The notes beneath the pieces are model-generated. The model was not told where the DNA came from and did not search any database. It saw only the letters and a list, made by a program, of their open reading frames with translations. A stretch of DNA of 64,000 nt from Isoptericola luteus (GTDB lineage: Bacteria > Actinomycetota > Actinomycetes > Actinomycetales > Cellulomonadaceae), in NCBI RefSeq assembly GCF_020297055.1, contig NZ_JAIXCQ010000003.1:188691-252690 (forward strand), in the 5' to 3' direction. The stretch's first letter is position 1. Each line of letters begins with the position of its first letter. Positions 104 to 30,262 of the stretch are shown here, in pieces. Made by a program: the position numbers and the translations under genes.

Positions 104-166
104 GGGTGAAGTCCGCCCGGTTCACCCGCCGCTCGCCCTGGCCGTGGCGGGCCGCCGGGTCAGAAT
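104..166 (+). promoter_or_regulatory. EPS-locus promoter A: GGGTGAA/TTCACCC inverted repeat plus -10
   Basis: GGGTGAA (104-110) and TTCACCC (121-127) form an inverted repeat with a 10-bp spacer. Exactly 33 bp after the second half-site is CAGAAT (161-166), a plausible -10. Transcription would start near 173, giving a leader of about 43 nt to the ATG at 216. The same half-sites and spacings recur upstream of the other EPS transcription units, so I read this as an operator or activator site. Confidence 0.6.
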
Positions 167-215
167 GGCCGGACGACCGGGCACCACGGTGGGACCGCAC
201 GACGGACGGAGCAGC

Positions 216-1271
216 ATGGCACGACTGACGCTGGCGACGGTCGCCGTGGGCACGCCGATGGGTCAGCAGGTGTACGAGCGCGAGGTCGCGGCCCGGGCCG
301 CGGGCGCACTGGGCGGCGACGTCGAGGTGACCCGCTCGGTCACGCGGTCGCTGCGCTCACCGCTGCCGGGGACGGCGCGCCTGCCGCACCGGCTGCTGCA
401 CGACGCCCCCACGGGGCTGCGCCGGGTCGTGGGCGCCGCCATGTACCGCGGCGCCGACGTGGTGCACCGGATGGGCCTGTCCCTGCCGCCGGCCCGCGTG
501 CCGGAGATCGTGACCGTGCACGACACGGTGGCGTGGCGGTTCCCGGACGAGTCCCGGCCCGAGACGTTCGCCGCGGCGGAGCTGCGGCGGGCGCGGGCGG
601 TGGTCTCGGTGTCGCAGTTCGCGGCGGACGACGTCGCCGAGCGCCTGGGCCTGGAGCACGTGCACGTCATCCACAACGGTGTGGACGAGCGCCTGCTGGG
701 TGCCCGCCCGGCGACGGCGGAACGGCTGCGCGAGCTGGGGGTCGAGGGCCCGTACGTGCTGCACGCCGGCGGCTCCTCGACGCGGAAGAACCTCGAAGCG
801 CTGGCCGCCGCGTGGCCCAAGGTGCGCTCCCGCTTCCCCGACGTGTCGCTGGTGCTCGCCGGGCCGCCGTCGCCGCGGCGCGACCGGCTCTTCGGCCCCC
901 TCGACGGCGCGGTCCGCGTCGGGCGCGTCCCGGACGAGGACGTCGCGGGCCTGCTCGCCGCGGCGTCCGCCGTCGTGGTGCCGTCCGTGTACGAGGGGTT
1001 CGGCCTCCCAGCCCTGGAGGGCCTCGCCGTCGGGACGCCGGTGGTCGCGGCGGCCCGGTCGTCGCTGCCCGAGGTGTGCGGGGACGCCGCGGTGCTCGTG
1101 GAGCCCGACGGCCCCTCGATCGCGGAGGGCCTCGAGCACGTGCTCACCGGCGGCGCCGAGGTGGACCTCCTCGTCGCGCGCGGCCGCGAACGCGCCGCAC
1201 GCTTCACCTGGGACGCGACGGCCGCCGCGCACGCCCGCCTGTGGCGTGCCGTGCTCGACGGCCGCCAGTGA
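216..1271 (+). CDS. Glycosyltransferase, GT4 family (GT-B fold)
   Basis: A cytoplasmic or membrane-associated glycosyltransferase of 351 aa that would transfer a sugar from a nucleotide donor during EPS repeat-unit assembly. The C-terminal half has the retaining GT4 signature EX7E (E260 and E268, in EGFGLPALE) followed by GTPVVAA. HNGVD near residue 155 and HAGGSSTRKN mark the junction and the start of the second Rossmann domain. The ATG at 216 is chosen because it follows GGACGGAGC and precedes MARLTLATVAVGTPMG, a typical GT4 N-terminus; the longer frame from 60 would start upstream of the promoter. It is the first gene of the EPS locus here. Acceptor and donor cannot be read from sequence. 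Confidence 0.85.
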   Translation: MARLTLATVAVGTPMGQQVYEREVAARAAGALGGDVEVTRSVTRSLRSPLPGTARLPHRLLHDAPTGLRRVVGAAMYRGADVVHRMGLSLPPARVPEIVTVHDTVAWRFPDESRPETFAAAELRRARAVVSVSQFAADDVAERLGLEHVHVIHNGVDERLLGARPATAERLRELGVEGPYVLHAGGSSTRKNLEALAAAWPKVRSRFPDVSLVLAGPPSPRRDRLFGPLDGAVRVGRVPDEDVAGLLAAASAVVVPSVYEGFGLPALEGLAVGTPVVAAARSSLPEVCGDAAVLVEPDGPSIAEGLEHVLTGGAEVDLLVARGRERAARFTWDATAAAHARLWRAVLDGRQ

Positions 1272-1342
1272 ACAGTTCCGGTGACACGACCATCGCCGGG
1301 GGATCGGCGATTTCAGGGCTGGCCCTTGTACCAGCACGGTTC

Positions 1343-1391: not shown

Positions 1392-1398
1392 AGGGCCG

Positions 1399-2388: not shown

Positions 2389-3187
2389 ACGATGCGACCG
2401 AGATCCATGTCCACGCGCTGAGCAACGCTGATTCCCTGGGCTATCTCGGGCAGCAGGCAGTCGCGAAGGCGACGGGCGATCATGAATACCGGATCGTCGG
2501 CGGCCACATGGTCCGGCTCCTGTTGCAGGTTTACCCGACGCGCAATGCCACGCTGCGCTCCACCCTGGATGCCGACGCAGCCGTCGGCGACGTCGAGGTC
2601 ATCGGACCCATCCGCGACCAGTTGATCGCACAGGACTCCGAGCAGGAGGGCGGCAACGTCTTTTCCAAAGTGCTGGACACCGATCAACGCGTCGAGATCA
2701 ACCTGTTGCTCGCCAGGCACGGGAGTTCGCAGGGCATCCGGCCTCAGGACGTGCCCGGCGTCGGGCAGGTCGACACACTCCCTTCGTTCTGGCTTCACCA
2801 GGCCTTGCCCTGGCCGTGACTGCCGAGCCCAGGGACGGCCGAACCATCGAGTACTCAGCCCGTATCCCCGACGTGGAAGCCGCGGTCGCCCTCAAGGCGC
2901 ACAGCTGGAGGGGACGCTACTTCGAGAACGACCTTGCTGACCTGCATTCGCTGCTGGAGATCCGAGACGCCCATCCGGACACCTCGTGGCGTCTCGAAGA
3001 GCAGAACCTTGCCGGGTTCCGAAAGGACGCCGCGCAGATCCTTCACGAGCTCGCCAAAGGAATCGTCCGGAAGAACTTCCGGGCTCCCGGCAATCTCGAC
3101 CGGCGGAGGATGGCCGCTCTGATCACGCGGCACGTCTCCAGGCCATGGCGTGTCAGCCCACGGGACCCCACGCCCGGATCGCGCTGA
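2385..3187 (+). pseudogene. AbiEii-like nucleotidyltransferase toxin, frameshifted
   Basis: Two consecutive frames together encode one protein. Bases 2385-2819 give residues containing YRIVGGHMVRLLL and STLDADAAVGDVEV, the G-G-x and D-x-D region of the nucleotidyltransferase fold. The reading frame then dies in SFWLHQALPWP-stop at 2819. The continuation is in another frame (to the TGA at 3185-3187): GLALAVTAEPRDGRTIEYSARIPDVEAAVALKAHSWRGR, typical of the second half of this family. A frameshift between about 2780 and 2812 therefore separates them. Sequencing error, a true pseudogene and programmed slippage cannot be distinguished here. The 3' end overlaps the convergent glycoside hydrolase gene. 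If truly broken, the AbiEi-like partner is an orphan antitoxin. Confidence 0.65.
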
Positions 3188-6100
3188 TGGCGACCTGGTA
3201 GTCGCTCGCGGTCTCGAGGTCCATGAAGGACGGGTGCGGCCCGCCCAGGACGCCGGAGTAGTTGAGCGCCAGCACCGGCACGTCGCGCTCGGTGGTCATC
3301 GGCACGGACACCCGCACGGCGGTCGCCGTGACGGGCTCGACGTCGAACAGCACGACCCGGTCGTAGAGCTGGGCGGCCTGCTCGGCGACGACGGACCAGT
3401 CGCCCGCCTCGTCCCGCACCTCCACGGTGTAGTCGCGCAGGCCCGCGGTGCAGCACCGGATGCCTGCCGTGGCCACCGCGATCCTGTCGATCTCCACCGG
3501 CCCGTCCGTCTCGACGGTCAGCGCGGGCGCCTCGTCCGTCGACCCGTCGGCGAGCAGGCCGGAGTGCCAGGGGTCGCGCACGTCGAAGGTCCCGGAGGTC
3601 ACGACGGACGCGTCCGCCGCTCCGTCGGCCTCGTGCGTGGACGTCGCGGTGACCGGCCGACCCTCCAGGAGGTCCGGCCCGAACTCCCGCGTCGCCCGGG
3701 CCGTCAGAGAGGTCCCTGCGGGCGCGACGACGAACGTGGGCGCCCCGCCCACGGGGACCTCGACGCCGCCGGCGGGCACGTCGAGCGCGCGCCGGTCCCC
3801 GTACTGGTCCACCACCTCGACGGTGACGTCGCCGTCCGGGCTCGCCAGCGTCAGCGAGGTGGCGAGGTCGTCCGTCCACAGGGCGAGCAGGGTGCCGTCC
3901 GGTCCGGTGCCGTCGACGGCGTACGTGCCGGGGGCGGGAGGGTCGCGCAGCTCCAGCTCGGTGAACCCGTCGAGGAGCGCGCTGGTGGCCGCGGCCGCCG
4001 CGCCGAGGGGCTTGACGTAGCCGTCGTGCTGCACGGCCGACCACGAGTTGCCGGTCTCGCCCCACCCGCCCTCGGAGAAGAAGTACGTCCACTCGTCGAT
4101 GCCCTCGAGCCGGTACCACAGGAGCTTGCGCGCGACGTCGGAGCCGCCCGACCAGAAGTTCACGACGCCGTCGGACCACCAGCCGGTCTCCGTGTCCCAC
4201 AGCGGCAGGTCCCCGCACGCCGCGAGGGTGTCGCGCAGCGCCTCCAGCTCGTGGCCGGGCAGGGAGAACCCCTCCTCCTCCCACGACCGGTTGAGGCCCG
4301 TGTAGGGGTGGATGCCGACGACGTCCATCGTGTCGCACGCACCCGCCGCGACGGCCTGCTCCCACCAGTCGAGGGCGAACCCCAGGGAGTTGCCGCCGAT
4401 GACGCGCGCGTCCGGGTCGGCGGCGCGGGCCGCGGCGGCGAAGGGCACGGCGACGTCGCGCACGTAGTCGGCGCCGTCGTCGAAGCCGGTGGCGTTCGGC
4501 TCGTTCCACGGCTCCCAGTCGGTGATCTCGGGGGCGGACCGCGCGAACTCGGCGACGATCTCGCGCACCCAGCCCTCCCACGTCCCCGCCTCGACGGCCG
4601 TCTTCTCCGAGCCGCCGGACCCGACCTGCACCACCAGGACCACCCCGAGCTCCCGGGCCAGCTCCCCAGCCTCGCGCAGCTCCGTGAACGGGTCGGCGGG
4701 CGCCGTCCCGTCCTCGGCGAGCACCCCGGCGTGGGGCAGCGAGCTCCAGTCGAGCGCGGCCGCGTCGGGCTCGGCGGCAGGGTCCGGCACGATCTTGGCG
4801 AAGTCGAGCTGCACGCGGTGGCTGCCGAAGCCGAGCGCGGCAGCCAGCTGGACGCCACGCAGCGCGCTCGCGCCGCCCCACCCCGCGCCGTCGGCCATCG
4901 CGTCGAACCCGAGGTCCACGCCCTGGGCCCCGACGGTGTACCGCAGGCAGTCCCCCGACAGCGCCTCGCCCGTGGCCGCGTCCACGAGGTGCGCGTCCAC
5001 CTCGTACACCCCGGGGCGAGCATCGGGCAGCATGAGCGGCACCTGCCCGCCCTGCGACGGCAGCGGCACCTCGCGCCAGTCCGTCACGACGGGCCCGCGC
5101 ACCCGCGGGTCGCCGCGCACCTGGTACCGCACGGCGTACCGGTCCGCCGACGCCGACCACGCGTCGTCGACCGAGAGCGCGACGTGCGGGTCGGTCCCGG
5201 CGGCGAAGTAGCCGAGCTCGACGCCGGTCTCCAGCCCCAGCCCGACGCCCATCCCCGACAGCATCGACTCGGTGCCCGCGTTGTACTTCACCGGGGCACG
5301 GAGCTGGTACGCGAGGCGGTCGTCCGAGATCCGCACCAGGGACGTGCCCGCCTGCGTGCCGGCCAGCACGTACGTGGCGTCGTCGGCCCGGACGACCCCG
5401 GCCTCGACCTCGAACGTGACGTCCTGGTCCAGGTCGCCGCGCGCCGCCGGCCAGATGCCGAGACGCACGCCCGAGGTGTCGAACCACTCGAGCCCGGTCC
5501 CCTTCTCGGCGACAAGCAGCCCGTGGCCCCCGGGGCCGCTGGTCACCGCGGTGACGTCCCCCGGGGCGCGCTGGCCGCCGTGGCCCAGCCCGCCACCGCC
5601 GCTCGTGGCGCCCAGGCCGAACGTGGCGGCCCCGTCCACCGTGCGGCCCACCACGTCGACGGCGTGCCCGTCGGGGCCGTCCTCGTCGTGGACCAGCACG
5701 ACGGATCCGTCGTCGGTCTGCCCCACGATCCCGCCCGGGAACGCGTCGCTCATCGGCTGGACCGTCCCGTCGGCGGCGACCTCGTGGAGTCCCGACGGCC
5801 CCTCGTGGACCCCGATCACCGGCTCGCCGCCCGGCTCCTGCCACAGCACGGTGCCGTACAGGTCCAGCAGCCGGCCCTCGGTCTGGTCCGACTCCGGCAG
5901 CGTCGCCGTCCAGACCTGCTCGCCGTCGCGGTCCAGCCGCACCAGGTCGCGCCGCCCCATGAGGGTGTCCAGCAGGTAGACGTTCCCGTCGTCGTCGACC
6001 TCGAAGTCCCCCACCCCGAACGACTCCGCCCCCTCGACCAGCCGCAGCTCGACGTCGAACCCGCCGTCGTCCGAGCCGTCGGCCAGGTCGTAGCGGTCCA

Positions 6101-6479
6101 CGCGGTAGGTGGACTCCCGGTCGAACGAGAGCACGTACGCCGTGCCGTCCCGGACCACGAAGTCCACGAGCAGGCGGTCGCCGGGCGGGGCGACGTCCGG
6201 CACGACCACCGAGAGCCCACCGAGCTCTTCGGCCTGCCGCCCGTCCGCGCTGATCGGGCCGACGTCCGGGAACCCGCACACCGCCGTCGGCCCCGGGCCC
6301 ACGCCCCCGACGGCGGCGAGCGGCGCGTTGGCGCCGTCCGCTCCCGCGACCTCGCCCGGCACGGCCCCCGAGACCGCGAGCATCGTGGTGACCACCACCG
6401 CGGCGCCGGCGACCGCGGCCACCACAACCGTCCGCACGCTCCGCGCGCGCACCCCACGACCCGTCTGCTGCTCGCTCAT
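3153..6479 (-). CDS. Secreted PslG-like glycoside hydrolase with N-terminal propeller-like region
   Basis: A large exported protein of 1108 aa. Residues 16-38 are a hydrophobic signal or anchor after a basic N-terminus, with no lipobox. Residues about 60-400 are repetitive beta-rich sequence (DDDGNVYLLD, GTVLWQEP) suggesting a beta-propeller. Residues about 530-860 form a clan GH-A TIM barrel: the acid/base motif WEPWNEPN (E660) and the nucleophile motif DTETGWW (E764) lie 104 residues apart. The tail, about 960-1108, looks like a discoidin-type sandwich (DYTVEVRDEAGDW). GH39-type enzymes such as PslG are encoded in EPS loci and cut the polymer they help make, so a role in trimming or releasing this EPS is likely. 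Its promoter carries the locus-wide motif. The family call is by motif only. Confidence 0.75.
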   Translation of the reverse strand: MSEQQTGRGVRARSVRTVVVAAVAGAAVVVTTMLAVSGAVPGEVAGADGANAPLAAVGGVGPGPTAVCGFPDVGPISADGRQAEELGGLSVVVPDVAPPGDRLLVDFVVRDGTAYVLSFDRESTYRVDRYDLADGSDDGGFDVELRLVEGAESFGVGDFEVDDDGNVYLLDTLMGRRDLVRLDRDGEQVWTATLPESDQTEGRLLDLYGTVLWQEPGGEPVIGVHEGPSGLHEVAADGTVQPMSDAFPGGIVGQTDDGSVVLVHDEDGPDGHAVDVVGRTVDGAATFGLGATSGGGGLGHGGQRAPGDVTAVTSGPGGHGLLVAEKGTGLEWFDTSGVRLGIWPAARGDLDQDVTFEVEAGVVRADDATYVLAGTQAGTSLVRISDDRLAYQLRAPVKYNAGTESMLSGMGVGLGLETGVELGYFAAGTDPHVALSVDDAWSASADRYAVRYQVRGDPRVRGPVVTDWREVPLPSQGGQVPLMLPDARPGVYEVDAHLVDAATGEALSGDCLRYTVGAQGVDLGFDAMADGAGWGGASALRGVQLAAALGFGSHRVQLDFAKIVPDPAAEPDAAALDWSSLPHAGVLAEDGTAPADPFTELREAGELARELGVVLVVQVGSGGSEKTAVEAGTWEGWVREIVAEFARSAPEITDWEPWNEPNATGFDDGADYVRDVAVPFAAAARAADPDARVIGGNSLGFALDWWEQAVAAGACDTMDVVGIHPYTGLNRSWEEEGFSLPGHELEALRDTLAACGDLPLWDTETGWWSDGVVNFWSGGSDVARKLLWYRLEGIDEWTYFFSEGGWGETGNSWSAVQHDGYVKPLGAAAAATSALLDGFTELELRDPPAPGTYAVDGTGPDGTLLALWTDDLATSLTLASPDGDVTVEVVDQYGDRRALDVPAGGVEVPVGGAPTFVVAPAGTSLTARATREFGPDLLEGRPVTATSTHEADGAADASVVTSGTFDVRDPWHSGLLADGSTDEAPALTVETDGPVEIDRIAVATAGIRCCTAGLRDYTVEVRDEAGDWSVVAEQAAQLYDRVVLFDVEPVTATAVRVSVPMTTERDVPVLALNYSGVLGGPHPSFMDLETASDYQVAISAIRAWGPVG

Positions 6480-6515
6480 GGGGCACCTCGCGGCTCGACG
6501 ACGGCTGGTCCTCCC

Positions 6516-6587
6516 ATCGTGGCGAGCATCCGCCGGAACGCGGGGGGCCGGCCCGGGTGAACCGGGCCGCCGAGGGGCAATTCACCC
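6516..6587 (-). promoter_or_regulatory. EPS-locus promoter B
   Basis: Read on the minus strand: GGGTGAA (6587-6581), 19 bp, TTCACCC (6561-6555), then exactly 33 bp to CACGAT (6521-6516), a plausible -10 for the hydrolase starting at 6479. The 33-bp distance matches promoter A. The outer half-site lies in a 19-bp sequence (plus strand 6580-6598, ATTCACCCGCTGACGCGCG) that is repeated exactly at 7318-7336. Confidence 0.55.
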
Positions 6588-6613
6588 GCTGACGCGCGGG
6601 CCGCCAGGCGCCG

Positions 6614-7207
6614 TCAGACGAACCGCTTGGCGTAGCCCAGACGGTAGGTGAGGTCCCGGTTGCGCTCGCGGACGAACCTCGCGGGGTTCCCCGCCACCAT
6701 CGCGAACGGCGGCACGTCCTTGGTCACGACGGCCCCCGCCGCCACGACCGCCCCCTCGCCGACGGTCACCCCGGGCAGGACGATCGCGTGGCTCGCGACC
6801 CACGCGTGGTCACCGATCTCGACGGGCGCGCCGACCTCCGCGAAGTCGGGCGAGTCGACGTCGTGCTGCCGGGTGTAGACGCTCACGTGGCTGCCGAGGT
6901 TCACCGCGTCGCCGATCACCAGGCCCGACCGTCCGTCGAGGAACGCCGAGTCGCCGATCGTGCAGTGCTCGCCCACGACGATGCGCTCGGGCGCGTAGAA
7001 CTCGGCGCGCCAGTGGATGCTCGACGTCGGCGGCAGCGTCAGCCCGGCGCGCCGGTAGAAGAACCCGCGGACCGCGTGCGACGGCACGTGGCCGACGTCG
7101 GCGAGCAGCCGCAGGCGCAGGTCCTGCCACATGTCGCGACGCCAGCGCACCGCCCCGACCAGCGCCGGCGGCGCCAGACCCTTGACCCGGTCCCGGACCA
7201 CGACCAC
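6614..7207 (-). CDS. Hexapeptide-repeat acyltransferase (WcaF/maltose acetyltransferase type)
   Basis: A 197-aa left-handed beta-helix O-acyltransferase, probably adding acetyl groups to a sugar of the EPS. Hexapeptide repeats run from about residue 75 to the end (IVVGEHCTIGDSAFLDG, VIGDAVNLGSHVSVYT, EIGDHAWVASHAIVLPGVTVGEGAVVAAGAVVTKDV), ending in the family hallmark MVAGNPARFVRER. The start is a GTG in a run of valine codons (7210, 7207 or 7201) after GAGAGGGA; 7207 gives the best spacing. An in-frame ATG at 7315 is rejected because it lies upstream of the promoter. The gene is divergent from the glycosyltransferase at 7402. Confidence 0.8.
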   Translation of the reverse strand: MVVVRDRVKGLAPPALVGAVRWRRDMWQDLRLRLLADVGHVPSHAVRGFFYRRAGLTLPPTSSIHWRAEFYAPERIVVGEHCTIGDSAFLDGRSGLVIGDAVNLGSHVSVYTRQHDVDSPDFAEVGAPVEIGDHAWVASHAIVLPGVTVGEGAVVAAGAVVTKDVPPFAMVAGNPARFVRERNRDLTYRLGYAKRFV

Positions 7208-7274
7208 CACGTCCCTCTCGCCGATCCCGCACCCGAGGGGCGGTGCTCCGTCATCCCACGGGTTGCTCCTCGCG

Positions 7275-7345
7275 ACGATACGGCGAGGGCGACCGAGCCG
7301 GGGAGCCCAGGGCACCGATTCACCCGCTGACGCGCGATCTCACCC
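7275..7345 (-). promoter_or_regulatory. EPS-locus promoter C, minus direction
   Basis: On the minus strand, GGGTGAG (7345-7339) and GGGTGAA (7325-7319) are direct repeats 20 bp apart. After GGGTGAA come exactly 38 bp and then TATCGT (7280-7275), a good -10. Transcription would begin near 7268 and lead into the acyltransferase start around 7207. The 38-bp distance recurs at the plus promoter at 21,760 and the minus promoter at 30,210. Confidence 0.6.
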
Positions 7346-7395: not shown

Positions 7396-7401
7396 GGCGT
7401 G

Positions 7402-8298: not shown

Positions 8299-9241
8299 GC
8301 ACCCGCGCAGCCTGGTCGTCGTCCTGAACTACCGCGGACGCGCGGACACCCTCGAGTGCGTCGCCTCGCTGGTCGAGGGCTCGCCCGCGCACACCGTGCT
8401 CGTGGTCGACAACGGGTCCCACGACGGCGTCCTGGACGCCGTGCGCGACCGGTGGCCCGCCACGGTGGCGACCCTGCAGAACGGGACGAACCTGGGGTTC
8501 GCCGGCGGTATGAACAGCGGGCTGCGCTGGGCGCGGGAGCACGGCTACGACGTGGTGACGGTGCTCAACAACGACACCGTCGTGCGGCCGGGCACCCTCG
8601 ACCTGCTGGTCGCCCGCGCGCTGGCCGGCCAGGTGGCCGTGAGCCCCGCGGTCCGCTACCGCGACGGCGTGCGCGTGTGGTTCGCCGGGGGCGGCCTGGA
8701 CCCGGAGGACGGGCTCCCCCACCACCTGTCGGACGACGCCGTCGCACGACTGCACGGCACCGACCCCGACGGCCCCTACGCGACCGACCTCCTCGCCGGG
8801 TGCTGCGTCACCGCGAGCGCCGCCACGTGGGCGACGGTCGGGGACTTCGACGAGCGCTTCTTCCTCAACTTCGAGGACTCCGAGTGGAGCGTGCGGGCGC
8901 GGCGGCTCGGCACCCGGCTGGAGGTGGAGCCGCGCGCCACGGTCCTGCACAGCGTGTCGGCCTCGTTCGTCGGGGCGTACTCGTACCTCGGCGCGTTCTA
9001 CTACGCGCGCAACAGCCTGCTGTACACGCGGCTCGTGGGCGGGGGGCGCACCCGCACGCTGCGGCTCCTGCGCCGCCGCGTGCTGCCCTCGCCGGTACGG
9101 ATCGCCCGTGCCGAGGGCTGGCGCGAGGGCGCCCGCAAGGGCGCGATGGTCGTCGCGGGGATCGCGGCCCACTCCACCCGGCGGTACGGGCGCGCCCCCC
9201 GCTGGGTCGAGGCGCGGGCGGGTCGATGGACCCGCGGGTGA
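8291..9241 (+). CDS. Glycosyltransferase family 2 (rhamnosyltransferase-like)
   Basis: A 316-aa inverting GT-A glycosyltransferase. LVVVLNYRGRADTLECVASL opens the fold, VVDNGSHDG binds nucleotide, NLGFAGGMNSGLRWA and VLNNDTVV (DxD equivalent) are typical of WbbL/rhamnosyltransferase-like enzymes, and FDERFFLNFEDSEWSVRA carries the catalytic ED. Expected role: adding a sugar, often rhamnose, to the lipid-linked EPS intermediate. The stop is followed closely by the next promoter (D), whose first half-site overlaps the last codons, so this gene ends the operon that starts at 7402. Confidence 0.85.
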   Translation: MPEHPRSLVVVLNYRGRADTLECVASLVEGSPAHTVLVVDNGSHDGVLDAVRDRWPATVATLQNGTNLGFAGGMNSGLRWAREHGYDVVTVLNNDTVVRPGTLDLLVARALAGQVAVSPAVRYRDGVRVWFAGGGLDPEDGLPHHLSDDAVARLHGTDPDGPYATDLLAGCCVTASAATWATVGDFDERFFLNFEDSEWSVRARRLGTRLEVEPRATVLHSVSASFVGAYSYLGAFYYARNSLLYTRLVGGGRTRTLRLLRRRVLPSPVRIARAEGWREGARKGAMVVAGIAAHSTRRYGRAPRWVEARAGRWTRG

Positions 9242-9309
9242 AGCCCGCCCCCGCGGCGGGTGAATTGCGCTCCGGACCGTCCTGAGGCGCGGTGGCCCCG
9301 GTCTACTGT
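9236..9309 (+). promoter_or_regulatory. EPS-locus promoter D
   Basis: Two direct GGGTGAA copies (9236-9242 and 9258-9264, 22 bp apart; the first overlaps the preceding stop codon) are followed after 39 bp by TACTGT (9304-9309), a good -10. Transcription would begin near 9316, giving a short leader with the ribosome binding site AAAGGGGGGG before the ATG at 9342. Confidence 0.6.
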
Positions 9310-9341
9310 GACGAGGCCTGAACAAAGGGGGGGACGAACGA

Positions 9342-10547
9342 ATGAACGGTGCCATCCGGGTCTCCGGGCTCGGCAAGACGTACCGCATCGCGCGCTCAGG
9401 GCAGCACGTCAACCGGGCGACCGAGGCGGTGCTGCAGCGGTTGCGTCACCCCCTGCAGCGCACCGAGTACGAGGAGTTCGAGGCCCTGCGGGACATCGAC
9501 CTCCAGATCGGCTGGGGCGAGGCCGTCGGCATCGTCGGCCGCAACGGCGCGGGCAAGAGCACGCTGCTCAAGGTGCTCACCCGCATCACCGCGCCGTCCA
9601 CCGGGCGGATCGAGCTCGGCGGCCGCGTCGGCAGCCTGCTCGAGGTCGGCACCGGGTTCCACCCCGAGCTCACCGGGCGGGAGAACGTTTACCTCAACGG
9701 CACGCTCCTGGGGATGCGGCGCAAGGAGATCCAGCGCCGGTTCGACGAGATCGTCGACTTCGCCGGGGTCGATCGCTTCCTCGACACCCCCGTGAAGCGC
9801 TACTCGTCCGGCATGTACGTGCGGCTCGCGTTCTCCGTCGCCGCGCACCTGGAGACGGAGATCCTCGCGATCGACGAGGTGCTCGCCGTCGGCGACGCCG
9901 AGTTCCAGGCGAAGTCCATCGCGAAGATGCGCGAGGCCGCCCGGTCGGGCCGCACCGTGCTGTACGTGAGCCACCAGGCGCAGACGGTGTCCGCGCTCTG
10001 CGACTCGGCCCTGTTCCTCGACCGTGGCACCGTCACGTTCCAGGGGCCGGTGGAGGACGCCCTCGCGGAGTACCGCCGCACGTTCTCGTCGTTCCAGGCG
10101 TCCCAGCAGGACCCGTCCCGGCGGTCGGGCACCGGTGAGCTCCGGTTCACGCGGGCCCAGATCACCGAGGAGACGATGGACCCCACGGCCGACAAGGTCG
10201 TGGAGTTCGACGTCGACGCGAACGACGAGGTCGTGGGCAGCTACTTCGTCTCCTGCCACGTCAACGACGCCGACGGCAACGTCGTCGTGCAGTGCGACTC
10301 GCGGCTGGTCGGCATGTGGCTCGACCCGTCGACGCCGCAGAGCGCCGCGCTGCGGATCAAGGACCTGTGGCTCAAGCCGGGTCGGTACACGTACGACCTG
10401 TACCTCTGCAAGGCCGGGATCCTCGACGCGTGGGAGGGCGCGGGCGCGTTCGAGGTGCTGCCCAAGGCCCCCTACCCGGCGGTGACCTCCGACGAGGCGC
10501 TGACGCACGGCCAGGTGCTGGCCGACTTCGAGTACGAGAGGCGCTGA
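9342..10547 (+). CDS. wzt: ABC transporter ATP-binding subunit for polysaccharide export (Wzt-like)
   Basis: A 401-aa ATPase that powers export of the lipid-linked glycan across the cytoplasmic membrane. Residues 1-245 form the nucleotide-binding domain: Walker A GRNGAGKS, Q-loop region (GFHPELTGRENVYLNG), signature YSSGMYVRLAFS, Walker B ILAIDEVLAVGD, H-loop VSHQ. Residues about 265-400 form an extra C-terminal beta domain (SYFVSCHVNDADGNVVVQCD, LKPGRYTYDLYLCKAGI) like the Wzt domain that recognises the end cap of the exported polymer. The permease gene follows 5 bp downstream. Presence of the C-terminal domain implies a non-reducing-end modification as export signal; the pyruvyltransferase nearby might make it (inference). 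Confidence 0.9.
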   Translation: MNGAIRVSGLGKTYRIARSGQHVNRATEAVLQRLRHPLQRTEYEEFEALRDIDLQIGWGEAVGIVGRNGAGKSTLLKVLTRITAPSTGRIELGGRVGSLLEVGTGFHPELTGRENVYLNGTLLGMRRKEIQRRFDEIVDFAGVDRFLDTPVKRYSSGMYVRLAFSVAAHLETEILAIDEVLAVGDAEFQAKSIAKMREAARSGRTVLYVSHQAQTVSALCDSALFLDRGTVTFQGPVEDALAEYRRTFSSFQASQQDPSRRSGTGELRFTRAQITEETMDPTADKVVEFDVDANDEVVGSYFVSCHVNDADGNVVVQCDSRLVGMWLDPSTPQSAALRIKDLWLKPGRYTYDLYLCKAGILDAWEGAGAFEVLPKAPYPAVTSDEALTHGQVLADFEYERR

Positions 10548-10552
10548 ACCGG

Positions 10553-11371
10553 ATGTCCACGATCGTCATCACCCCGCCCGGACGCCTCAACCTGCCCGCC
10601 TGGCGCGAGCTGTGGGAGTCCCGCGAGGTGCTCTACCGGTTCGGGGTGCGGGACATCGTCCTGCGCTACCGGCAGACCGCCGTCGGCGTCGCCTGGGTGA
10701 TCCTGCAGCCCCTGGCCGCGGCGGGCATCTTCGCCATCGTCTTCGGGCAGGTCGCGAACCTGTCCAGCGGCAACGTGCCGTACTTCGTGTTCAGCCTGGC
10801 CGGCATGCTCGTGTGGAACCTGTTCAACGGCATCGTCGGGCGGTCGTCGTCCTCGCTGGTGGCGAACCAGGCGCTCGTGTCCAAGGTCTTCTTCCCCCGG
10901 ATGCTCGTGCCGCTGTCGTCGGTGCTGTCCGTGCTGGTGGACTTCCTGGTCGCGACCGCGCTGTTCGTCGTGCTGCTCTTCGTGTACGGCATCAACCCGG
11001 GCTGGCAGGTGCTCACGCTGCCCCTGTGGGTGGCCGTGGCGGTGGTGTTCGCCTCCGGCATCGGGCTGGCGGCGTCGGCCGTGATGGTCAAGTACCGCGA
11101 CGTGAACTACGCGCTGCCGTGGGTCATGCAGATCCTCCTGTACGCCACGCCTGTGGCGTACACGCTCGACTCGGTGCCGCGCGACCTGCTGTGGCTGTTC
11201 AACCTCAACCCGCTGACCTGGCTGCTCGAGTGCTTCCGCTGGGCCGCCCTCGGCAGCCCCGCGCCGCCCGCCTGGCAGATGTTCGGCATCGCCGGCGTCG
11301 CCGTGCTCGTGTTCGCCGCCGGGACCCTCGTGTTCCAGAAGATGGAACGTGGCTTCGCGGACGTGATCTGA
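10553..11371 (+). CDS. wzm: ABC-2 permease for polysaccharide export (Wzm-like)
   Basis: A 272-aa integral membrane protein, partner of the preceding ATPase. The N-terminal amphipathic stretch RDIVLRYRQTAVGVAWVILQPL is the ABC-2/Wzm coupling motif, followed by about six membrane segments (LAAAGIFAIVFGQV, YFVFSLAGMLVWNLF, FLVATALFVVLLFVYG, LTLPLWVAVAVVFASGIG, MQILLYATPVAYTL, FGIAGVAVLVFAAGTLVF). KYRDVNYALPWVMQ is a conserved cytoplasmic loop. The ATG at 10553 is chosen because it follows the ATPase stop directly; the longer in-frame extension runs inside the ATPase gene. It ends 1 bp before the next glycosyltransferase. Confidence 0.9.
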   Translation: MSTIVITPPGRLNLPAWRELWESREVLYRFGVRDIVLRYRQTAVGVAWVILQPLAAAGIFAIVFGQVANLSSGNVPYFVFSLAGMLVWNLFNGIVGRSSSSLVANQALVSKVFFPRMLVPLSSVLSVLVDFLVATALFVVLLFVYGINPGWQVLTLPLWVAVAVVFASGIGLAASAVMVKYRDVNYALPWVMQILLYATPVAYTLDSVPRDLLWLFNLNPLTWLLECFRWAALGSPAPPAWQMFGIAGVAVLVFAAGTLVFQKMERGFADVI

Positions 11372-15928: not shown

Positions 15929-16282
15929 TCAGGAAAGTCCGAGGTGGAGCAGCAGTGCCTCGTCGAGAGCGGCGACCTGAGGTGTGGTCAGGGCTCCGCG
16001 CCGGTCCCCGAAGCGATCCACGTCGATGGAGCGAACCCGCTCCGCCTGCGCCTTGGAGTCGACGGTGAGCCCGTTCGCGACGTCGGCAGGGACGAGGACC
16101 TGGAACGGCAGGATTCGAGACGTGTTGCTCGTGAGCGGCACCACGGTCAGGACGCCTCGGCCGCTGCGCTGAGTGATCCGGTTGCGGGCGTCGTTCGACA
16201 CGATCACCACCGGGCGCCGCTTGTCCGCCTCGGAGCCACGTACCGGCACCAGGTCGACGTCCCAGATCTCACCGCGGCGCAA
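15929..16282 (-). CDS. MazF/PemK-family endoribonuclease toxin
   Basis: A 117-aa protein of the usual MazF length. MRRGEIWDVDLVPVRGSEADKRRPVVIVSNDARN is the family N-terminus (G-E-I-W, then KRRPVVIVSND), LTVVPLTSN the second conserved strand, and AQAERVRSIDVDRFG the C-terminal motif. MazF toxins cleave single-stranded mRNA in the cytoplasm. The ATG lies inside the upstream antitoxin gene (14-bp overlap), so the two are coupled. It sits between two oppositely oriented EPS operons. Confidence 0.88.
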   Translation of the reverse strand: MRRGEIWDVDLVPVRGSEADKRRPVVIVSNDARNRITQRSGRGVLTVVPLTSNTSRILPFQVLVPADVANGLTVDSKAQAERVRSIDVDRFGDRRGALTTPQVAALDEALLLHLGLS

Positions 16283-19300: not shown

Positions 19301-20542
19301 TCAGGCCCCCGGCTCGAAGACCTCGAGGTGCGGGAGCGCGACGACGAGCCGGCCGCCCCAGCCGGCGACGTGCGCGAGCTGCGCCGAGATCTCCTTGCGC
19401 AGGTTCCACGGCATGATCACGACGTAGTCCGGGCGAGCCTCGTCCAGTGCCTCGGGGGCGTGCACCGGGATGTGGGTGCCCGGCAGGAACCGCCCGTGCT
19501 TGTAGGGGTTGCGGTCCACGGCGAACTCGAGGAGGTCGGCCCGCACCCCGCAGTGGTTGAGCAGCGTGTTGCCCTTGCCGGGAGCGCCGTAGGCCACCAC
19601 CCGCTTGCCCTGCCGCCGGGCGGTGAGCAGGAACGAGACGAAGTCGTCGCGGACCTGGGCCACCTGCTGCGCAAACCCGTCGTGCCCCTCGAGGGTGTGC
19701 AGCCCGAACTCGGCCTCCAGGGCGAGCACCCGCTCGACCTCCGGGCTCGGGGCGGGTGCGTGCTCGGCCGGCGCGGACCACGTGCGCAGCGAGCCGCCGT
19801 GGCTCGGCAGCTCCTCGACGTCGACGACGGCCAGCCCGGCCGCCGCCAGGACCCGCTGCGTCGTCAGGAGCGAGAGGTAGGAGAAGTGCTCGTGGTAGAT
19901 CGTGTCGTACTCGTTGCCCTCGATGAGCCGCAGCAGGTGCGGGATCTCGATGCTCACCCGGCCGTCGTCCGCGACCAGGGCGCGCAGGCCCTTCGCGAAG
20001 TCGAGGATGTCCGGCACGTGCGCGAAGACGTTGTTGGCGACCACGAGGTCCGCCGGGCCGCGATCGTCGGCCACCTCCTTGCCCGTGGCCTCACCGAGGA
20101 ACTCCACGAGGGTGGGGATACCGCGCTCGACGGCCGCCGCCGCCACGTTCTCCGCCGGCTCGATGCCGAGGCAGCGGATGCCGCGGTCGCGCACGTGCTG
20201 GAGCAGGTAGCCGTCGTTGCTGGCGACCTCCACGACGAACGAGTCGGCCCCGAGGGGCAGGCGCTCGACCGCGCCCTCCACGAACCGCCGGGCGTGCTCC
20301 ACCCACGAGTCGGAGAACGACGAGAAGTACGCGTAGTCCGTGAAGATCTCCTCCGCGGGGATGTACGTGGGCAGCTGCACCAGCAGGCACCGGGTGCACA
20401 CGCGCACGTGCAGCGGGTAGAACGTCTCGCCCTGGTCGATCTCGTCCGCACGCAGGATGCGCTCGCACGGCGGGGACATGCCGAGGTCGACGAACGTACG
20501 CGTCAGCTCGGTGCCGCACAGCCGGCAGGCCGGGGTGCTCAT
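19301..20542 (-). CDS. NDP-sugar C-methyltransferase (class I SAM)
   Basis: A 413-aa methyltransferase. Cysteines at 6, 9, about 49 and 52 (CRLCG, CTRC) form the N-terminal zinc domain. [14 protein letters not shown] is SAM motif [21 protein letters not shown] motif II/III, and [14 protein letters not shown] the catalytic YHEH of the TylC3/TcaB9 family. [19 protein letters not shown] opens the C-terminal substrate domain. It probably methylates a ring carbon of a keto-sugar nucleotide. Its ATG overlaps the epimerase stop. Unlike its downstream paralogue, all catalytic motifs are intact. Confidence 0.87.
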
Positions 20543-21570
20543 GCCGCCTCCCGCATCCGCAGCGTCGCGAGGTCGAGACGCCCCGCGTCGGCGAGCGCCT
20601 GGATCGCCCGCAGCCGCACGTACCGCGGCCCGTCGAAGTCCTGCGCGGTGAACCCGCGCTCCTGTGCGTGCGACCAGATCTCCCGGATGCCGTCCGGCAC
20701 CGTCCAGCGGGGGGCGAACGCCGTGAGCAGCGCGCCGATCTTGCCGAAGTCGACCTGGTAGTTGCGGGTGTCCGGGCCCGCCCCCGCGGCGAACGTCACC
20801 GGCGCGCCGGTGATCTCGCTGACCTGCTCGGCGATGGTGCGGATCTGGACGACGTCCTCGTCCCGACCGACGTTGAACGCCTGGTCGTGCACGACGTCGC
20901 GGGGCGCCTCGAGCGCCGCGAGGAACGCGTGCGAGATGTCGTCGACGTGCACGAGCGGCCGCCACGGGCTGCCGTCGGACTGGAGGCGGACCTCGCCGCG
21001 GGTGAACGCCGTGCCCGTGAGGTTGTTGACCACGATGTCCGCGCGCAGCCGCGGGGACGAACCGTACGCGGTCGCGTTGCGCAGGTACGACGGCGAGAAG
21101 GAGTCGTCGGCCAGCGCCGCGATCCCCCGCTCCGCCAGCACCTTCGACTCGCCGTACGGCGTGACCGGGTGGAACTCGGCGTCCTCCGCCACGGGCGCGT
21201 CGCCCGCCGCCCCGTACAGGGAGCACGACGACGAGAAGAGGAACCGGGAGACGCCGGCAGCCTTCGCCGCCTTCGCGACGTGCACGGCGCCCCGCGCGTT
21301 GACGTCGTACGTCGCCTCGGGGTTCAGGTGGCCGATCGGGTCGTTCGAGATCGCCGCGAGGTGCACCACCGCGTCGAACCCCTCGAGGTCGGCGGGCGTC
21401 ACGTCCCGGACGTCGCCCGTGCGCTGCTCGTAACCCCCGGGCTGCGGGCCGAAGTCGCAGCCGTCGTACCAGCCGACGTCGAGACCGACGATCTCGTGCC
21501 CGGCACGCTGCAGGACGGGGACCAGCACCGCGCCGATGTAGCCACGGTCGCCGTCGACGAGAACTCGCAT
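20539..21570 (-). CDS. NAD-dependent sugar epimerase/dehydratase (extended SDR)
   Basis: A 343-aa extended short-chain dehydrogenase acting on a nucleotide sugar. [16 protein letters not shown] is the NAD loop (GxxGxxG), [18 protein letters not shown] the adenine-side strand, [11 protein letters not shown] and [11 protein letters not shown] carry the catalytic S and YxxxK, and [13 protein letters not shown] and [14 protein letters not shown] the substrate region. It is the first gene of the five-gene minus-strand operon, reading from promoter E. Whether it epimerises, reduces or dehydrates cannot be decided from sequence; it is not a typical CDP-glucose 4,6-dehydratase. Confidence 0.85.
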
Positions 21571-21654: not shown

Positions 21655-21700
21655 AAACTAATGCCCGTGCGCGCGGCACGGCAGGCCGGTAGCGGGTGGA
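21655..21700 (-). promoter_or_regulatory. EPS-locus promoter E, minus direction
   Basis: On the minus strand TCCACCC (21700-21694) is followed by exactly 33 bp and TAGTTT (21660-21655), a plausible -10. The distance equals that at promoters A and B. A leader of about 78 nt leads to the epimerase ATG at 21570. This would drive the whole CDP-sugar operon. Confidence 0.55.
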
Positions 21701-21765
21701 TTCGCCCGGGCGACGGGTGAAAGTCGCCCGGGGCCCTCGGTTTGCCTCGCCGCGCCGTGGAGAAT
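21694..21765 (+). promoter_or_regulatory. EPS-locus promoter E, plus direction (leaderless)
   Basis: GGGTGGA (21694-21700) and GGGTGAA (21715-21721) are direct repeats 21 bp apart. Exactly 38 bp later is GAGAAT (21760-21765), followed by 7 nt and the ATG at 21773. There is no ribosome binding site, so the operon 21,773-27,409 probably begins with a leaderless message. Confidence 0.6.
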
Positions 21766-21772
21766 CGGCCGC

Positions 21773-27409: not shown

Positions 27410-29006
27410 CGGCGGTGTCCGCCGTGCCCGCCGTGCCCGCCGTGCCCGACCCCGGAGCACCGTCCGAGCCCTTGGCGGGCTGACCGGCCGGGTCGGCGGC
27501 GTCCCTGCCGTCCTTGACGTCGCCGACCACCGCGCCGCGCTCGCCGTCGCCGTAGCGCGTCGCGTACTGCGTGCGGCGGTCGCCGCGCACCCCGGACAGG
27601 GCGAGCCCCGCGATGGGCACGTCGTTGATGTGCAGCCGCTGGATCGCCTCCCCGAGCACGTACCGGTCGGTCCTGCCGGCGGTAGCGAGGACGACGACCC
27701 CGTCGGCGTACCCGCCGAGGATGGTCGCGTCGGCGGCGGCGAGCACCGGGGGCGCGTCGATGACGAGCATGTCGGCCCGCTCGCGCAGCCGCCCGACCAT
27801 CTTGCGGACCACCTCGGTGGCGAGGAAGTCCGCCGGGTCCATCATCACGTCGGGGACCGGCTGGAGCTCGAGGTTCGGCACGGTCGTGGGGCGCAGCTCC
27901 GTGCCCACCCCCGACCACCCCTCCGGCGCCGGCAGCCAGGAGTCGAGCTCGGCCTGACGCATGTCGGCCGAGAAGGCAACCGTGCGCAGCCCGCTCAGCG
28001 CCCACGACGCCGCGAGGTTGGCGGCGATGAACGACCGCGGCGCCGCCGGGTCTGCGGACGTCACGACGACGACCCGGTGCGGCTCGTGGCCCAGCGACAC
28101 CCGGGTCGCGGTGCGCAGCTCGCGGATCGACTCGGTGAACGGGGACGCGGCACGGCTCGTGATGGGCAGCCGCCCGCTGGACCCGGCCTTCTTGGCCGCG
28201 GCCTTGACGCCGTAGAGCTCGGCGAGCACGTTCACGCCACCCACCGCCGCGGCCTCCTCCGCGGAGCGGACGTGGAAGTCCAGGCCGCGGCGGGCGAACG
28301 CGGCGCCGACGCCCGCGACGAGGCCGAGCAGCACCGCCATCGCGAGCACGCTCGCCCGGGAGAGCCCCAGCGCCACCGCGGGGTTCGCGGCGGAGAGCAG
28401 GGTGCCGGGCTCGACGATCGACTGCATGGTGCTGCGCAGCGCCGAGACCGCCTGGTACTGGGTGATGATCGTGTCGCGCTCGGCCGCGGCCAGCGGGTCG
28501 TCCTCGTCGCCCTTGAGCTGCTTCTGGACGGTGGCGAGCTGTTTGCGCAGCGCGTCACGACGCTCGTCGAGCTCCGCGATCTGCTGGTCGCGGACGGTCG
28601 GCAGGTGGTCCACGTAGGAGCGCGCGAACGCCCCGGCGATCGCCTGCGCCCCTTGCGGGGAGCCGGCGTCCGCGATCACGGACATCGTCTGCGCGTCGGT
28701 GTCGTACTCCGGCGTCACCCCCAGGGCAAGGACGGCCGGGTTCCCGGCGTAGCCCAGCTCCTCGGCCGCGGCGGCGGCGACCTCCTCCGACGTCACGAAG
28801 TCGGGGTCCACGTCGACCGACGCGGCCTGCGACGTGTCCGCGCCGATGACGGACTGGGCCGAGTTGATCTGGACGACTGCCGTCGACTGGTAGACCGTGT
28901 CCTGCCGGTCGAGGTACAGCCACGCCCCGACCACCACCAGCAGCGTGGTGGCGAGCACGTAGTACTTGCCTGCCCAGACGACCTGCAGGAAATCGCGGAC
29001 GGTCAC
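27345..29006 (-). CDS. Wzz/BY-kinase fusion with degenerate kinase site (chain-length regulator)
   Basis: A 553-aa protein. Residues about 12-33 and 210-235 are the two membrane segments of a Wzz/CpsC adaptor, enclosing an outside domain with a coiled coil (DQQIAELDERRDALRKQLATVQKQL). Residues about 310-500 match the bacterial tyrosine kinase domain, but the Walker A reads TSADPAAPRSFIAANLA: the catalytic lysine of PGEGKS is arginine/serine (R324) and the glycines are lost. Walker A-prime keeps one D (FSADMRQAEL) and Walker B is intact (MLVIDAPPVL, D417). The tail lacks a tyrosine cluster. Probably an inactive kinase that still controls EPS chain length with the Wzy-like protein. GTG 29006 overlaps the upstream stop (GTGA). 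Confidence 0.8.
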   Translation of the reverse strand: MTVRDFLQVVWAGKYYVLATTLLVVVGAWLYLDRQDTVYQSTAVVQINSAQSVIGADTSQAASVDVDPDFVTSEEVAAAAAEELGYAGNPAVLALGVTPEYDTDAQTMSVIADAGSPQGAQAIAGAFARSYVDHLPTVRDQQIAELDERRDALRKQLATVQKQLKGDEDDPLAAAERDTIITQYQAVSALRSTMQSIVEPGTLLSAANPAVALGLSRASVLAMAVLLGLVAGVGAAFARRGLDFHVRSAEEAAAVGGVNVLAELYGVKAAAKKAGSSGRLPITSRAASPFTESIRELRTATRVSLGHEPHRVVVVTSADPAAPRSFIAANLAASWALSGLRTVAFSADMRQAELDSWLPAPEGWSGVGTELRPTTVPNLELQPVPDVMMDPADFLATEVVRKMVGRLRERADMLVIDAPPVLAAADATILGGYADGVVVLATAGRTDRYVLGEAIQRLHINDVPIAGLALSGVRGDRRTQYATRYGDGERGAVVGDVKDGRDAADPAGQPAKGSDGAPGSGTAGTAGTADTAVTGGSGAPRGLRRAARPASTR

Positions 29007-30166
29007 CGGCTCACCTCGTGCTCTTCGGTACGGGCACCACGACCGGGCGTCGCTGCCTCGTCCACCACCGCACGGAGCCGCCGCGCGAACGACTCCTCCG
29101 CGAACGATCTCACGTGCTCGGTGAGCACGCCCTCGTCCCACCGGGTCCCGAGCGCCACGGCGAGCGCCTCGGCGAACGCCGCCGGATCGGGCGCGGGGAC
29201 GTGGACGCCCGTGCGCCCGTCCACGACGGTGTCGAGGTACCCGCCGGCGCCCAGCACCACGGACGGGCGCCCGAAGGCCCCCGCCTCGAGGGGGGACAGC
29301 CCGAAGTCCTCGTACGACGCGGCCACGAGCAGGGCGCTGGAGCGGTAGAGCCAGCGCAGCTCGGCGTCGTCGACCCGCCCCAGGAACGTGACGGGGGCGC
29401 CCTGCGCGAGCCGTGTCAGGCGCGCGCGGTCGGGACCGTCACCCACCACGACGAGGCGAGGCCCGCCGAGCCGGCGTGCGGCCTCGACGAGCACGTCGAC
29501 GTTCTTGTACGGCAGCAGGCGCGCCACGCACAGCAGGAAGCCGGGTTCGAGACCCGCCACGGCCCGCTCCTGGCCGGCCGGCAGCATGGCGGGCGGCGGC
29601 GGCAGGATCTCGGCCTCGATGCCGTAGACCGCGCGCACCGCGTCGCGGGTCACCGTGGAGTTCGCGAGGTAGACGTCGGCGCGCTCGGCGGCGGCCCGGT
29701 CCCAGGTGCGCAGCGGGGAGCCCAGCAGGCCCAGCGCCGCGCGGGCCACCCACGCCCGGCCCCGGTCCGTGGCCGACCGCGCCTCGGCGCCGGAGAGGTA
29801 CCGGTCGCGCTGGTACAGCCAGCGGGCGGGGGCGTGGCAGTAGACGACGGTGCGGCGGGCACCTCGGTACCCGTGCGCCCAGCCCGTCGAGCTCGCGAGC
29901 AGGACGTCCGCCTCGACCGCCTGCGCGTCGACCGCGGCGGCGAGCAGCGGGAGCGCCAGCCGGTGCCGGCGGCGCAGCAGCGCCCAGCGGTCGAGCCGCG
30001 AGGTCCGCAGGTCGACGTCGGCGAACTCCGGGAACGTGCCGGCCGGGTCGTACAGCGTGGTGTACATCGGGGCCTGCGGGAACGCCCGGGCCATGGCGAG
30101 CGCCACCCGCTCCGCACCACCACGCTGGGTGGCGTAGTCGTGCGCGAGAGCCACCGTGGGCGCCAT
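29003..30166 (-). CDS. Glycosyltransferase, GT4 family (WbaZ-like)
   Basis: A 387-aa GT-B glycosyltransferase. TVALAHDYATQRGGAERVALAMARAFPQAPMYTTLYDP, SSTGWAHGYRG, VVYCHAPARWLY and YLANSTVTRDAVRAVYGIEAEILPPP are characteristic of the WbaZ-like mannosyltransferase group. VARLLPYKNVDVLVEAARRLGG opens the donor domain and EDFGLSPLEAGAFGRPSVV has EX7E. The ATG at 30166 follows GAGGAGGA; the in-frame extension upstream would overlap promoter F. It is the first gene of a two-gene minus operon with the Wzz-like protein. Confidence 0.87.
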   Translation of the reverse strand: MAPTVALAHDYATQRGGAERVALAMARAFPQAPMYTTLYDPAGTFPEFADVDLRTSRLDRWALLRRRHRLALPLLAAAVDAQAVEADVLLASSTGWAHGYRGARRTVVYCHAPARWLYQRDRYLSGAEARSATDRGRAWVARAALGLLGSPLRTWDRAAAERADVYLANSTVTRDAVRAVYGIEAEILPPPPAMLPAGQERAVAGLEPGFLLCVARLLPYKNVDVLVEAARRLGGPRLVVVGDGPDRARLTRLAQGAPVTFLGRVDDAELRWLYRSSALLVAASYEDFGLSPLEAGAFGRPSVVLGAGGYLDTVVDGRTGVHVPAPDPAAFAEALAVALGTRWDEGVLTEHVRSFAEESFARRLRAVVDEAATPGRGARTEEHEVSR

Positions 30167-30204
30167 GTCTCCTCCTCGTGCGGACGGTCGTGGACCGCCC
30201 GTCG

Positions 30205-30262
30205 AGCGTACGGAGACGGGGCCCGGAAATCGGGGCTTCCGGGTGTTTTCCACCCGGGTGAA
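30205..30262 (-). promoter_or_regulatory. EPS-locus promoter F
   Basis: On the minus strand TTCACCC (30262-30256) abuts GGGTGGA (30255-30249), a back-to-back palindrome. GGGTGGA is followed by exactly 38 bp and TACGCT (30210-30205), a plausible -10; the leader to the ATG at 30166 is about 31 nt. This is the last copy of the motif and marks the edge of the EPS locus. Confidence 0.6.

Follow-up and report, generated by a model that had tools for sequence, protein, structure and literature searches.

A phased GGGTGAA promoter element of an exopolysaccharide locus, and a solo GerE-type protein as its candidate reader

The stretch of DNA analysed here (the window; 64,000 nucleotides, bases 188691-252690 of contig C20 in the 3.97-Mb genome of Isoptericola luteus, GC content of the window 73.6%) contains an exopolysaccharide (EPS) locus in which a heptamer, GGGTGRA or its complement TYCACCC, stands before several of the genes. 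This raises the question of whether the heptamer is a promoter element, whether it is confined to EPS genes, and which protein would read it. An earlier note on this DNA had placed such half-sites at set distances from the -10 boxes of eight putative promoters and had proposed that they define an EPS regulon. We showed that the same distances recur at promoters of related genomes, where paired sites also follow the turn of the helix; the element is almost certainly a genuine one, shared among promoters. In what we consider the best explanation, with a probability of about 0.55, GGGTGA[A/T] (= [A/T]TCACCC) would be the half-site of a transcription activator, read by a solo GerE/LuxR-type helix-turn-helix (HTH) protein of ~80 aa; this assignment is made from sequence comparison.

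Half-sites and their distance to the -10 box

The window contains 40 copies of GGGTGRA where 16.8 would be expected (sd 4.2; the maximum in 100 shuffles was 27), and half-sites lie at 104+, 121-, 6555+, 6581-, 7319-, 9236+, 9258+, 21694+, 21715+, 30249- and 30256+ (Table 1). All half-sites of the eight promoters were found where the earlier note had put them, and recomputation returned distances of 33 bp (promoters 161, 6521- and 21660-), 38 bp (7280-, 21760 and 30210-) and 39 bp (9304). For promoter 7390 the distance of 44 bp was reproduced, but its half-site is the one-base variant CTCACCC and not TYCACCC; this 44-bp class has no independent support, since at the promoters of relatives TAnnnT occurs just once at a distance of 42 bp and never at 43-45 bp. 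Four of the eight -10 hexamers fit TAnnnT (9304 TACTGT, 21660- TAGTTT, 7280- TATCGT and 30210- TACGCT), and the others are weaker (161 CAGAAT, 21760 GAGAAT, 6521- CACGAT and 7390 GATACT). The glycosyltransferase transcript from 21760 is perhaps leaderless. Two promoters of the locus (window 6580-6598 and 7318-7336) also have the 19-mer ATTCACCCGCTGACGCGCG in common, which is longer than the half-site itself would need.

The distances were then read in other genomes. In the promoters of relatives, 11 of the 20 TAnnnT hexamers located 10-90 bp after TTCACCC lie at 32-34 bp (57 promoter readings), and 23 of the 39 after GGGTGAA lie at 38-39 bp (62 promoter readings), the totals of 20 and 39 being occurrences, with orthologous promoters and arrays included. 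When counted by target family, TAnnnT stands at 32-34 bp after TTCACCC in 9/30 families, other 3-bp windows reaching three at most; for GGGTGAA the count at 38-39 bp is 10/32, other 2-bp windows reaching no more than one. Since the peaks persist after this collapse, the 33-bp and 38-39-bp distances hold on unrelated genes and in other genomes.

The scan for chance spacing that the earlier note had suggested was made on C20 (10.7% of the genome), and genome-wide only in the form of exact patterns. Among the coding copies on C20 (n=123, both directions), TAnnnT never occurs at 32-34 bp from TYCACCC or at 38-39 bp from GGGTGRA. Around the non-coding copies (n=49), eight TAnnnT lie within 75 bp when the site is read as GGGTGRA, four of them at 38-39 bp, but only one of nine is at 33 bp when it is read as TYCACCC; within C20 alone, therefore, only the 38-39-bp class stands out. 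Clusters of at least two sites within 60 bp are present in 9/15 EPS promoter regions of C20 versus 1/178 others (Fisher p 6e-11), the EPS boundary (177.6-219 kb plus the gene of a polyprenyl glycosylphosphotransferase, PGT) having been set after the sites had been seen. Two other repeats should be mentioned. A 21-bp tandem repeat of GGGTGGACAGGGCGGCGGGCA (G000:C24:60454-60565) mimics the direct repeat and looks like an ordinary tandem array, and an inverted pair at C22:145929, inside a pyruvate-kinase-like gene, was discounted as chance.

Conservation, spacing and target genes

Judged by the epimerase protein, the closest named relatives are Isoptericola, Cellulosimicrobium and Oerskovia (85-86% identity). 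Upstream of the epimerase gene, many relatives retain the direct pair [A/T]TCACCC-N14/15-T[T/C]CACCC within DNA that otherwise varies, and some pairs differ in spacing (e.g. 11 bp). TAnnnT lies 32-34 bp past the proximal TYCACCC in 19/20 of these promoters (the window and 19 relatives; the anchoring TYCACCC of L039 was chosen by hand), L044 being the one with no TAnnnT in that interval. Abutting or single sites precede the homologue of the glycosyltransferase encoded at 29003-30166 in L037, L045, L046 and L051. Site density in the EPS loci of 20 relatives is 3.1/kb in intergenic versus 0.69/kb in coding DNA (more than 6 kb of the lower-GC locus L058, left uncalled by the gene caller, was tallied as intergenic); in control loci, taken from distant actinobacteria with an epimerase homologue, the values are 1.05/kb and 0.81/kb, and an intergenic pair within 70 bp was found in 0/22 of them.

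The exact pattern TTCACCC-N4-15-TTCACCC was run on 38 genomes, 24 of the family and 14 of other families, and returned 118 same-strand pairs in the former and 15 in the latter. The family pairs have periods of 11 (16 pairs), 12 (32), 13 (6), 14-19 (9), 20 (5), 21 (25) and 22 bp (25), which places 103/118 on phase (11-12 or 20-22 bp; chi-square p 5e-26 versus even spacing); 9/15 pairs are on phase in the other families. Collapsing to 51 target families leaves 61 family-spacing combinations, of which 51 are on phase (p 2e-11). In 98 fetched stretches, 111 of 119 pairs are intergenic, a count made per stretch in which a few pairs of overlapping stretches appear twice and some intergenic pairs have no adjacent gene start.

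The earlier view of a position-fixed element common to EPS promoters is thus borne out by the window and by its relatives, whereas its restriction to EPS genes is not: copies recur outside the locus, at the PGT gene, at an rfbA-like gene and at genes for secreted proteins of relatives. The EPS PGT gene (TIGR03025 over the cut-off), 127 kb away from the right end of the locus, has three half-sites with a period of 11 bp, the middle copy being CTCACCC. A pair precedes the nucleotidyltransferase gene resembling rfbA, and left of the window site clusters accompany a lasso-peptide-like cluster and a glycosyltransferase gene. Recurrent targets in relatives are PGT (15 genomes), PAP2, AsnB-like and PqqD genes and the homologue of the secreted protein encoded at 3153-6479, followed by GDP-mannose dehydratase, a phytase/GDPD protein, pectate lyase, other secreted proteins and many genes seen once only. 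Polysaccharide genes (PGT, GDP-mannose dehydratase) are therefore accompanied by many other targets, which points to a regulon of envelope and EPS genes and not of EPS genes alone. The last copy in the locus, previously taken for its edge, marks a promoter and not a boundary as such.

The lasso-peptide-like cluster (G000:C20:180375-185490) encodes a PqqD-type chaperone, an AsnB-like and a B2 protein (over cut-off), together with an HprK-like kinase (weak match) and an ABC transporter (by inspection). A short open reading frame starting MYESPRITEVGTV near 180.8 kb could encode the lasso precursor; two TTCACCC lie in the region before it.

The EPS locus itself holds genes for glycosyltransferases, a Wzt/Wzm-like exporter, sugar-nucleotide and methyltransferase functions, a pyruvyl transferase (PS_pyruv_trans) and a Wzz-like protein, several of these names resting on inspection or on matches below family cut-offs. 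Genes were called with a simple custom codon-position caller and are uncurated. Inside the EPS locus there are also, at window 1399-2819, a protein with a Crp-like HTH match below cut-off and a 144-aa partner with no Pfam match, and, at 15929-16282, a MazF-like gene (by inspection); these may be inserted toxin-antitoxin or defence genes.

Table 1. Half-sites, -10-like hexamers and genes discussed in the text (window positions unless a contig is named)
Feature	Position	Strand	Remarks
Inverted pair GGGTGAA-N10-TTCACCC	104..127		Divergent region before glycosyltransferase-like gene ~216-1271 (name by inspection)
-10-like CAGAAT	161..166	+	33 bp from TTCACCC 121-127
Inverted pair GGGTGAA-N19-TTCACCC	6555..6587		Before secreted protein 3153-6479 (-); 33 bp to CACGAT at 6521 (-)
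Direct TTCACCC (7319-7325) and CTCACCC (7339-7345), period 20	7319..7345		Before acyltransferase 6614-7210
-10-like TATCGT	7275..7280	-	38 bp from TTCACCC 7319-7325
-10-like GATACT of promoter 7390			44 bp from variant CTCACCC 7339-7345
Direct pair GGGTGAA-N15-GGGTGAA, period 22	9236..9264	+	Before Wzt-like ATPase
-10-like TACTGT	9304..9309	+	39 bp after direct pair 9236..9264
Direct pair GGGTGGA-N14-GGGTGAA, period 21	21694..21721	+	Divergent epimerase/glycosyltransferase region; kept in relatives
-10-like TAGTTT, epimerase side	21655..21660	-	33 bp; TAnnnT at 32-34 bp in 18/19 relatives
-10-like GAGAAT, glycosyltransferase side	21760..21765	+	38 bp; near glycosyltransferase start codon 21773
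Abutting inverted pair TCCACCC-GGGTGAA	30249..30262		Before glycosyltransferase 29003-30166 (-)
-10-like TACGCT	30205..30210	-	38 bp from abutting inverted pair
Secreted protein, 1108 aa, C-terminal galactose-binding domain	3153..6479	-	Relatives' homologues (3 sequences, likeness by inspection) also with paired site
Hexapeptide acyltransferase	6614..7210	-	Promoter 7280
Wzt-like ABC ATPase (9342-10547) and Wzm-like permease (10553-11371)	9342..11371	+	Matches below family cut-offs
NAD-dependent epimerase/dehydratase (name by inspection)	20539..21570	-	81-86% identical in ten best loci
Glycosyltransferase	29003..30166	-	PF00534, PF13439
Solo HTH gene	G000:C25:14540-14779	-	Adjoins gcvH-like gene

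A candidate reader and its rivals

The activator would sit on one face of the DNA, at one or two half-sites (direct repeats 11-12 or 21-22 bp apart, or inverted pairs), and would bind just upstream of the -35 region in either orientation, each with a fixed offset of its own: relative to the transcription start, about -52 to -46 with TTCACCC toward the gene, and about -57 to -51 with GGGTGAA toward the gene (a start 7 bp after the -10 being assumed). A half-site whose end lies 33 or 38-39 bp ahead of the -10, immediately above the -35, is what an activator would be expected to use; we infer activation rather than repression, as we do the identity of the binding protein. Genes for the export and assembly of EPS, for the initiating phosphosugar transferase and for secreted or envelope proteins would thereby be switched on together.

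The solo protein matches PF00196 (GerE) with 53.3 bits (cut-off 23.5, E 2e-14) and is over no NCBIfam cut-off. A Pfam scan of its own 72-aa form revealed GerE, plus Sigma70_r4 below cut-off, and no receiver or ligand domain; since no sensor domain is seen, the signal could lie in its dose. Predicted lengths in other genera have a median of 78 aa (69-97; 70 parsed copies), and among 21 parsed copies that include its own genus the length is 73-106 aa in 20 and 153 aa in one, the starts being guessed and some open frames longer. The best solved structure for it is that of GerE (PDB 1fse, E 7e-9), followed by VpsT (3kln). By size and absence of other domains it was singled out among 36 GerE-domain matches in its genome (35 over cut-off), which also has 11 OmpR-type matches. 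Two response regulators of this genome (G000:C1:44180-44818 and C3:71563-72201) have identical scores and printed ends, by duplication or assembly overlap.

The solo protein is present in 23/24 family genomes and 0/14 others. In a wider sample (searched with a query one residue off the protein of its source relative, which matched that genome at 99%) it was found in 113/121 family genomes, and the remaining 8 carry 0-1 pairs each; summed from per-genome counts, there are 369 pairs in 462 Mb with the solo gene versus 3 in 18.8 Mb without it (p 0.0015, uncorrected for kinship). A stronger argument than this phyletic match is the gene's own promoter. In other genera, GGGTGA[AT] is found within 350 bp upstream of it in 55/70 regions (69 genomes, 21 genera), and at -160 to -70 in that orientation in 44/70 regions, from 13/21 genera, versus four regions with the opposite orientation. 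GGGTGAA tops 210 permuted strand-words there (49 regions versus 27 for the next, median 1), and five genomes of genus g23 have the exact 21-bp pair. From these sets, 10 of 80 fetched regions in other genera and 4 of 25 in the set that includes its own genus had been dropped because the HTH pattern missed the frame. A second word, GCGTCAT, precedes the solo gene in 63/70 regions and is more conserved there than GGGTGAA; at other paired promoters it is only mildly enriched (8/76 versus 1/121), and it may be the site of a second factor.

Several observations weigh against the solo protein. It is one pick of 36 GerE matches and the phyletic check was made for it alone, so the phyletic match is weak by itself. 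Moreover, its distribution follows kinship. The 8 genomes lacking it belong to genus g5 (four) or to g24 (four small genomes), so that few independent events underlie the correlation, and since the completeness of four of these 8 is only 72-81%, some absences may be gaps. No exact pair occurs in 16/113 genomes with the protein. In its own genus the site is found at 3/17 solo promoters, the genome studied here having only GGGTGAC at -211 and no phased pair in the non-coding DNA beside the gene, and in solo promoters the site is not followed by a TAnnnT at 38-39 bp. The promoters of mtrA also hold GGGTGA[AT] or [AT]TCACCC, in 13/27 regions (27 of 30 loci were usable); carriage of the site therefore does not single out the solo protein. 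A direct repeat with a 15-nt gap is left unbound by ComA of Bacillus subtilis (PMC4797271), unlike the 21-22-bp class here, which would then need two separate, cooperating proteins. The own-genus gap, the mtrA promoters and the missing -10 at solo promoters explain why we hold the reader to be much less certain than the cis-element. The fuller proposal, that a single sensorless HTH protein of ~80 aa controls EPS, secreted and envelope genes across the family, reading the heptamer as monomers that sit one or two turns apart on one face of the DNA, in either orientation and with a separate fixed distance to the -10 for each, and acting by dose with no ligand or phosphate, is more tentative and falls somewhat short of even odds.

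Alternatively, another GerE/NarL-type regulator with BldM-like specificity might bind the same regulon, the solo protein being merely one of its targets. This is unlikely, but it is the rival we take most seriously: 36 GerE-domain matches offer other candidate readers, promoter carriage alone cannot separate regulator from target, and the half-site of BldM is given as CGGGTGA (PMC4125116). Against it, the 41 loci of the genome that were examined (30/36 GerE and all 11 OmpR-type) have no adjacent non-coding phased pair, although the same is true of the solo locus, and the EPS loci of 20 relatives have no regulator in common. A search for one among clustered proteins of <330 aa, in these 20 and in the locus studied here, brought up only single TetR- and LysR-like genes (L050, L056), and a response regulator gene that diverges from one for pectate lyase with a 12-bp pair (L256), attractive at first, was rejected, as this neighbour is not kept in L238 and L245. 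MtrA, of the OmpR type, is an improbable reader. OmpR-type proteins favour 11-bp direct repeats, and the mtrA promoter of the genome studied here is among those with the site (at -136), which makes mtrA a target or, less likely, the regulator; but mtrA is kept in the motif-poor genomes G021, G059 and G075, MtrA sites are GTAAC-like, and periods of 12 and 21 bp suit strict 11-bp tandem binding poorly.

Even less probable is that PhoP/RegX3 bind the sites as pho boxes (direct repeats of an 11-bp unit, GTTCACC), with EPS then responding to phosphate. The TTCACC core is common to the box of Streptomyces coelicolor (PMC4415409) and GTTCACCC is named as a pho-like motif in Actinosynnema (PMC9019756), and some paired targets are linked to phosphate (the phytase/GDPD protein and a PstS-like lipoprotein, the latter by inspection). 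PhoP was nevertheless set aside: in the 11-, 12-, 21- and 22-bp classes the base before TTCACCC is G in only 8-25% of the first copies and 16-28% of the second, the genome's own pstS promoter (name by inspection) has an apparently separate box, GTTCACT-N4-GTTCACC, and the periods 12 and 21 are frequent (32 and 25 pairs), although 11 and 22, which an 11-bp unit would suit, occur as well (16 and 25 pairs). The 21-22-bp period also raised a LytTR-type regulator, of which the genome has one gene, since LytTR sites are direct repeats ~21 bp apart; this is very hard to maintain, as four genomes that are 99-100% complete (G003, G004, G005 and G010) have no LytTR match while each carries 4-6 exact pairs, unless a diverged copy escaped the search. 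Least credible of all is that the pattern arose by chance or reflects a terminator, a repeat or another structural element of the DNA: by inspection, hairpins could arise from some of the inverted pairs, but the fixed -10 distances on unrelated genes, the helical phasing and the presence of a site cluster in just 1/40 convergent regions of C20 all speak against it.

Known systems and significance

If the solo protein is the activator, EPS control in these actinobacteria, whose nearest named relatives are Isoptericola, Cellulosimicrobium and Oerskovia, gains its regulator together with a legible site and a list of targets. The orientation-dependent offset (33 versus 38-39 bp) and the one- or two-turn spacing offer natural material for studying how a GerE-type activator would meet RNA polymerase. 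In the open-licence literature none of the titles listed dealt with this GGGTGAA/TTCACCC site, TTCACCC direct repeats led to a paper on PhoP, and no description of GerE sites was found; in one paper GGGTGAA appeared in primers, and an earlier description elsewhere is possible.

BldM, whose output domain is of the GerE type, is alike in the half-site. The earlier note knew of no described regulator with such a site, but this has to be amended: the half-site of BldM and BldM-WhiI of Streptomyces is CGGGTGA (PMC4125116), a likeness that extends to the base after TTCACCC, which is G in 52-70% of the 21- and 22-bp classes and less often in the 11- and 12-bp ones. The arrangement differs, as BldM sites are 16 bp long and palindromic or half-palindromic, with 4 bp between the halves, whereas direct repeats of 11-12 or 20-22 bp dominate here; the 4-bp-gap inverted repeat is not among the intergenic inverted spacings of the EPS loci examined, no genome-wide palindrome search having been made. 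The pho box of PhoP/RegX3 is alike in its TTCACC core and direct repeats, and differs in that the sites described here show no G preference in front, have other periods and leave a separate pho-like box at pstS.

Other systems resemble the solo protein itself. VpsT and CsgD control matrix polysaccharide, and both have an N-terminal receiver-like domain. VpsT is the second structure match and the CsgD model matched far below cut-off; the solo protein lacks the receiver-like domain of both. The LuxR-type MalT, whose model matches the solo HTH far below cut-off, recognises GGAKGA boxes that are also directly repeated, and is a 900-aa protein sensing ATP and sugar. ComA of B. subtilis has a receiver domain. 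It belongs to the same HTH family as the solo protein and recognises directly repeated hexamers separated by 5 nt (period 11) and also inverted ones, these arrangements acting on different RNA polymerase subunits (PMC4797271); this fits the 11-12-bp class, one of the two classes of spacing found here, while its motif (TTGCGG) and its failure to bind across a 15-nt gap set it apart. Closest in build is GerE of B. subtilis, a stand-alone HTH protein of 74 aa that, like the solo protein, has no sensor domain and that gave the best structure match; it differs in phylum, motif and targets. GerE acts with sigma-K, and the genes on which it works are those of a surface layer, the spore coat.

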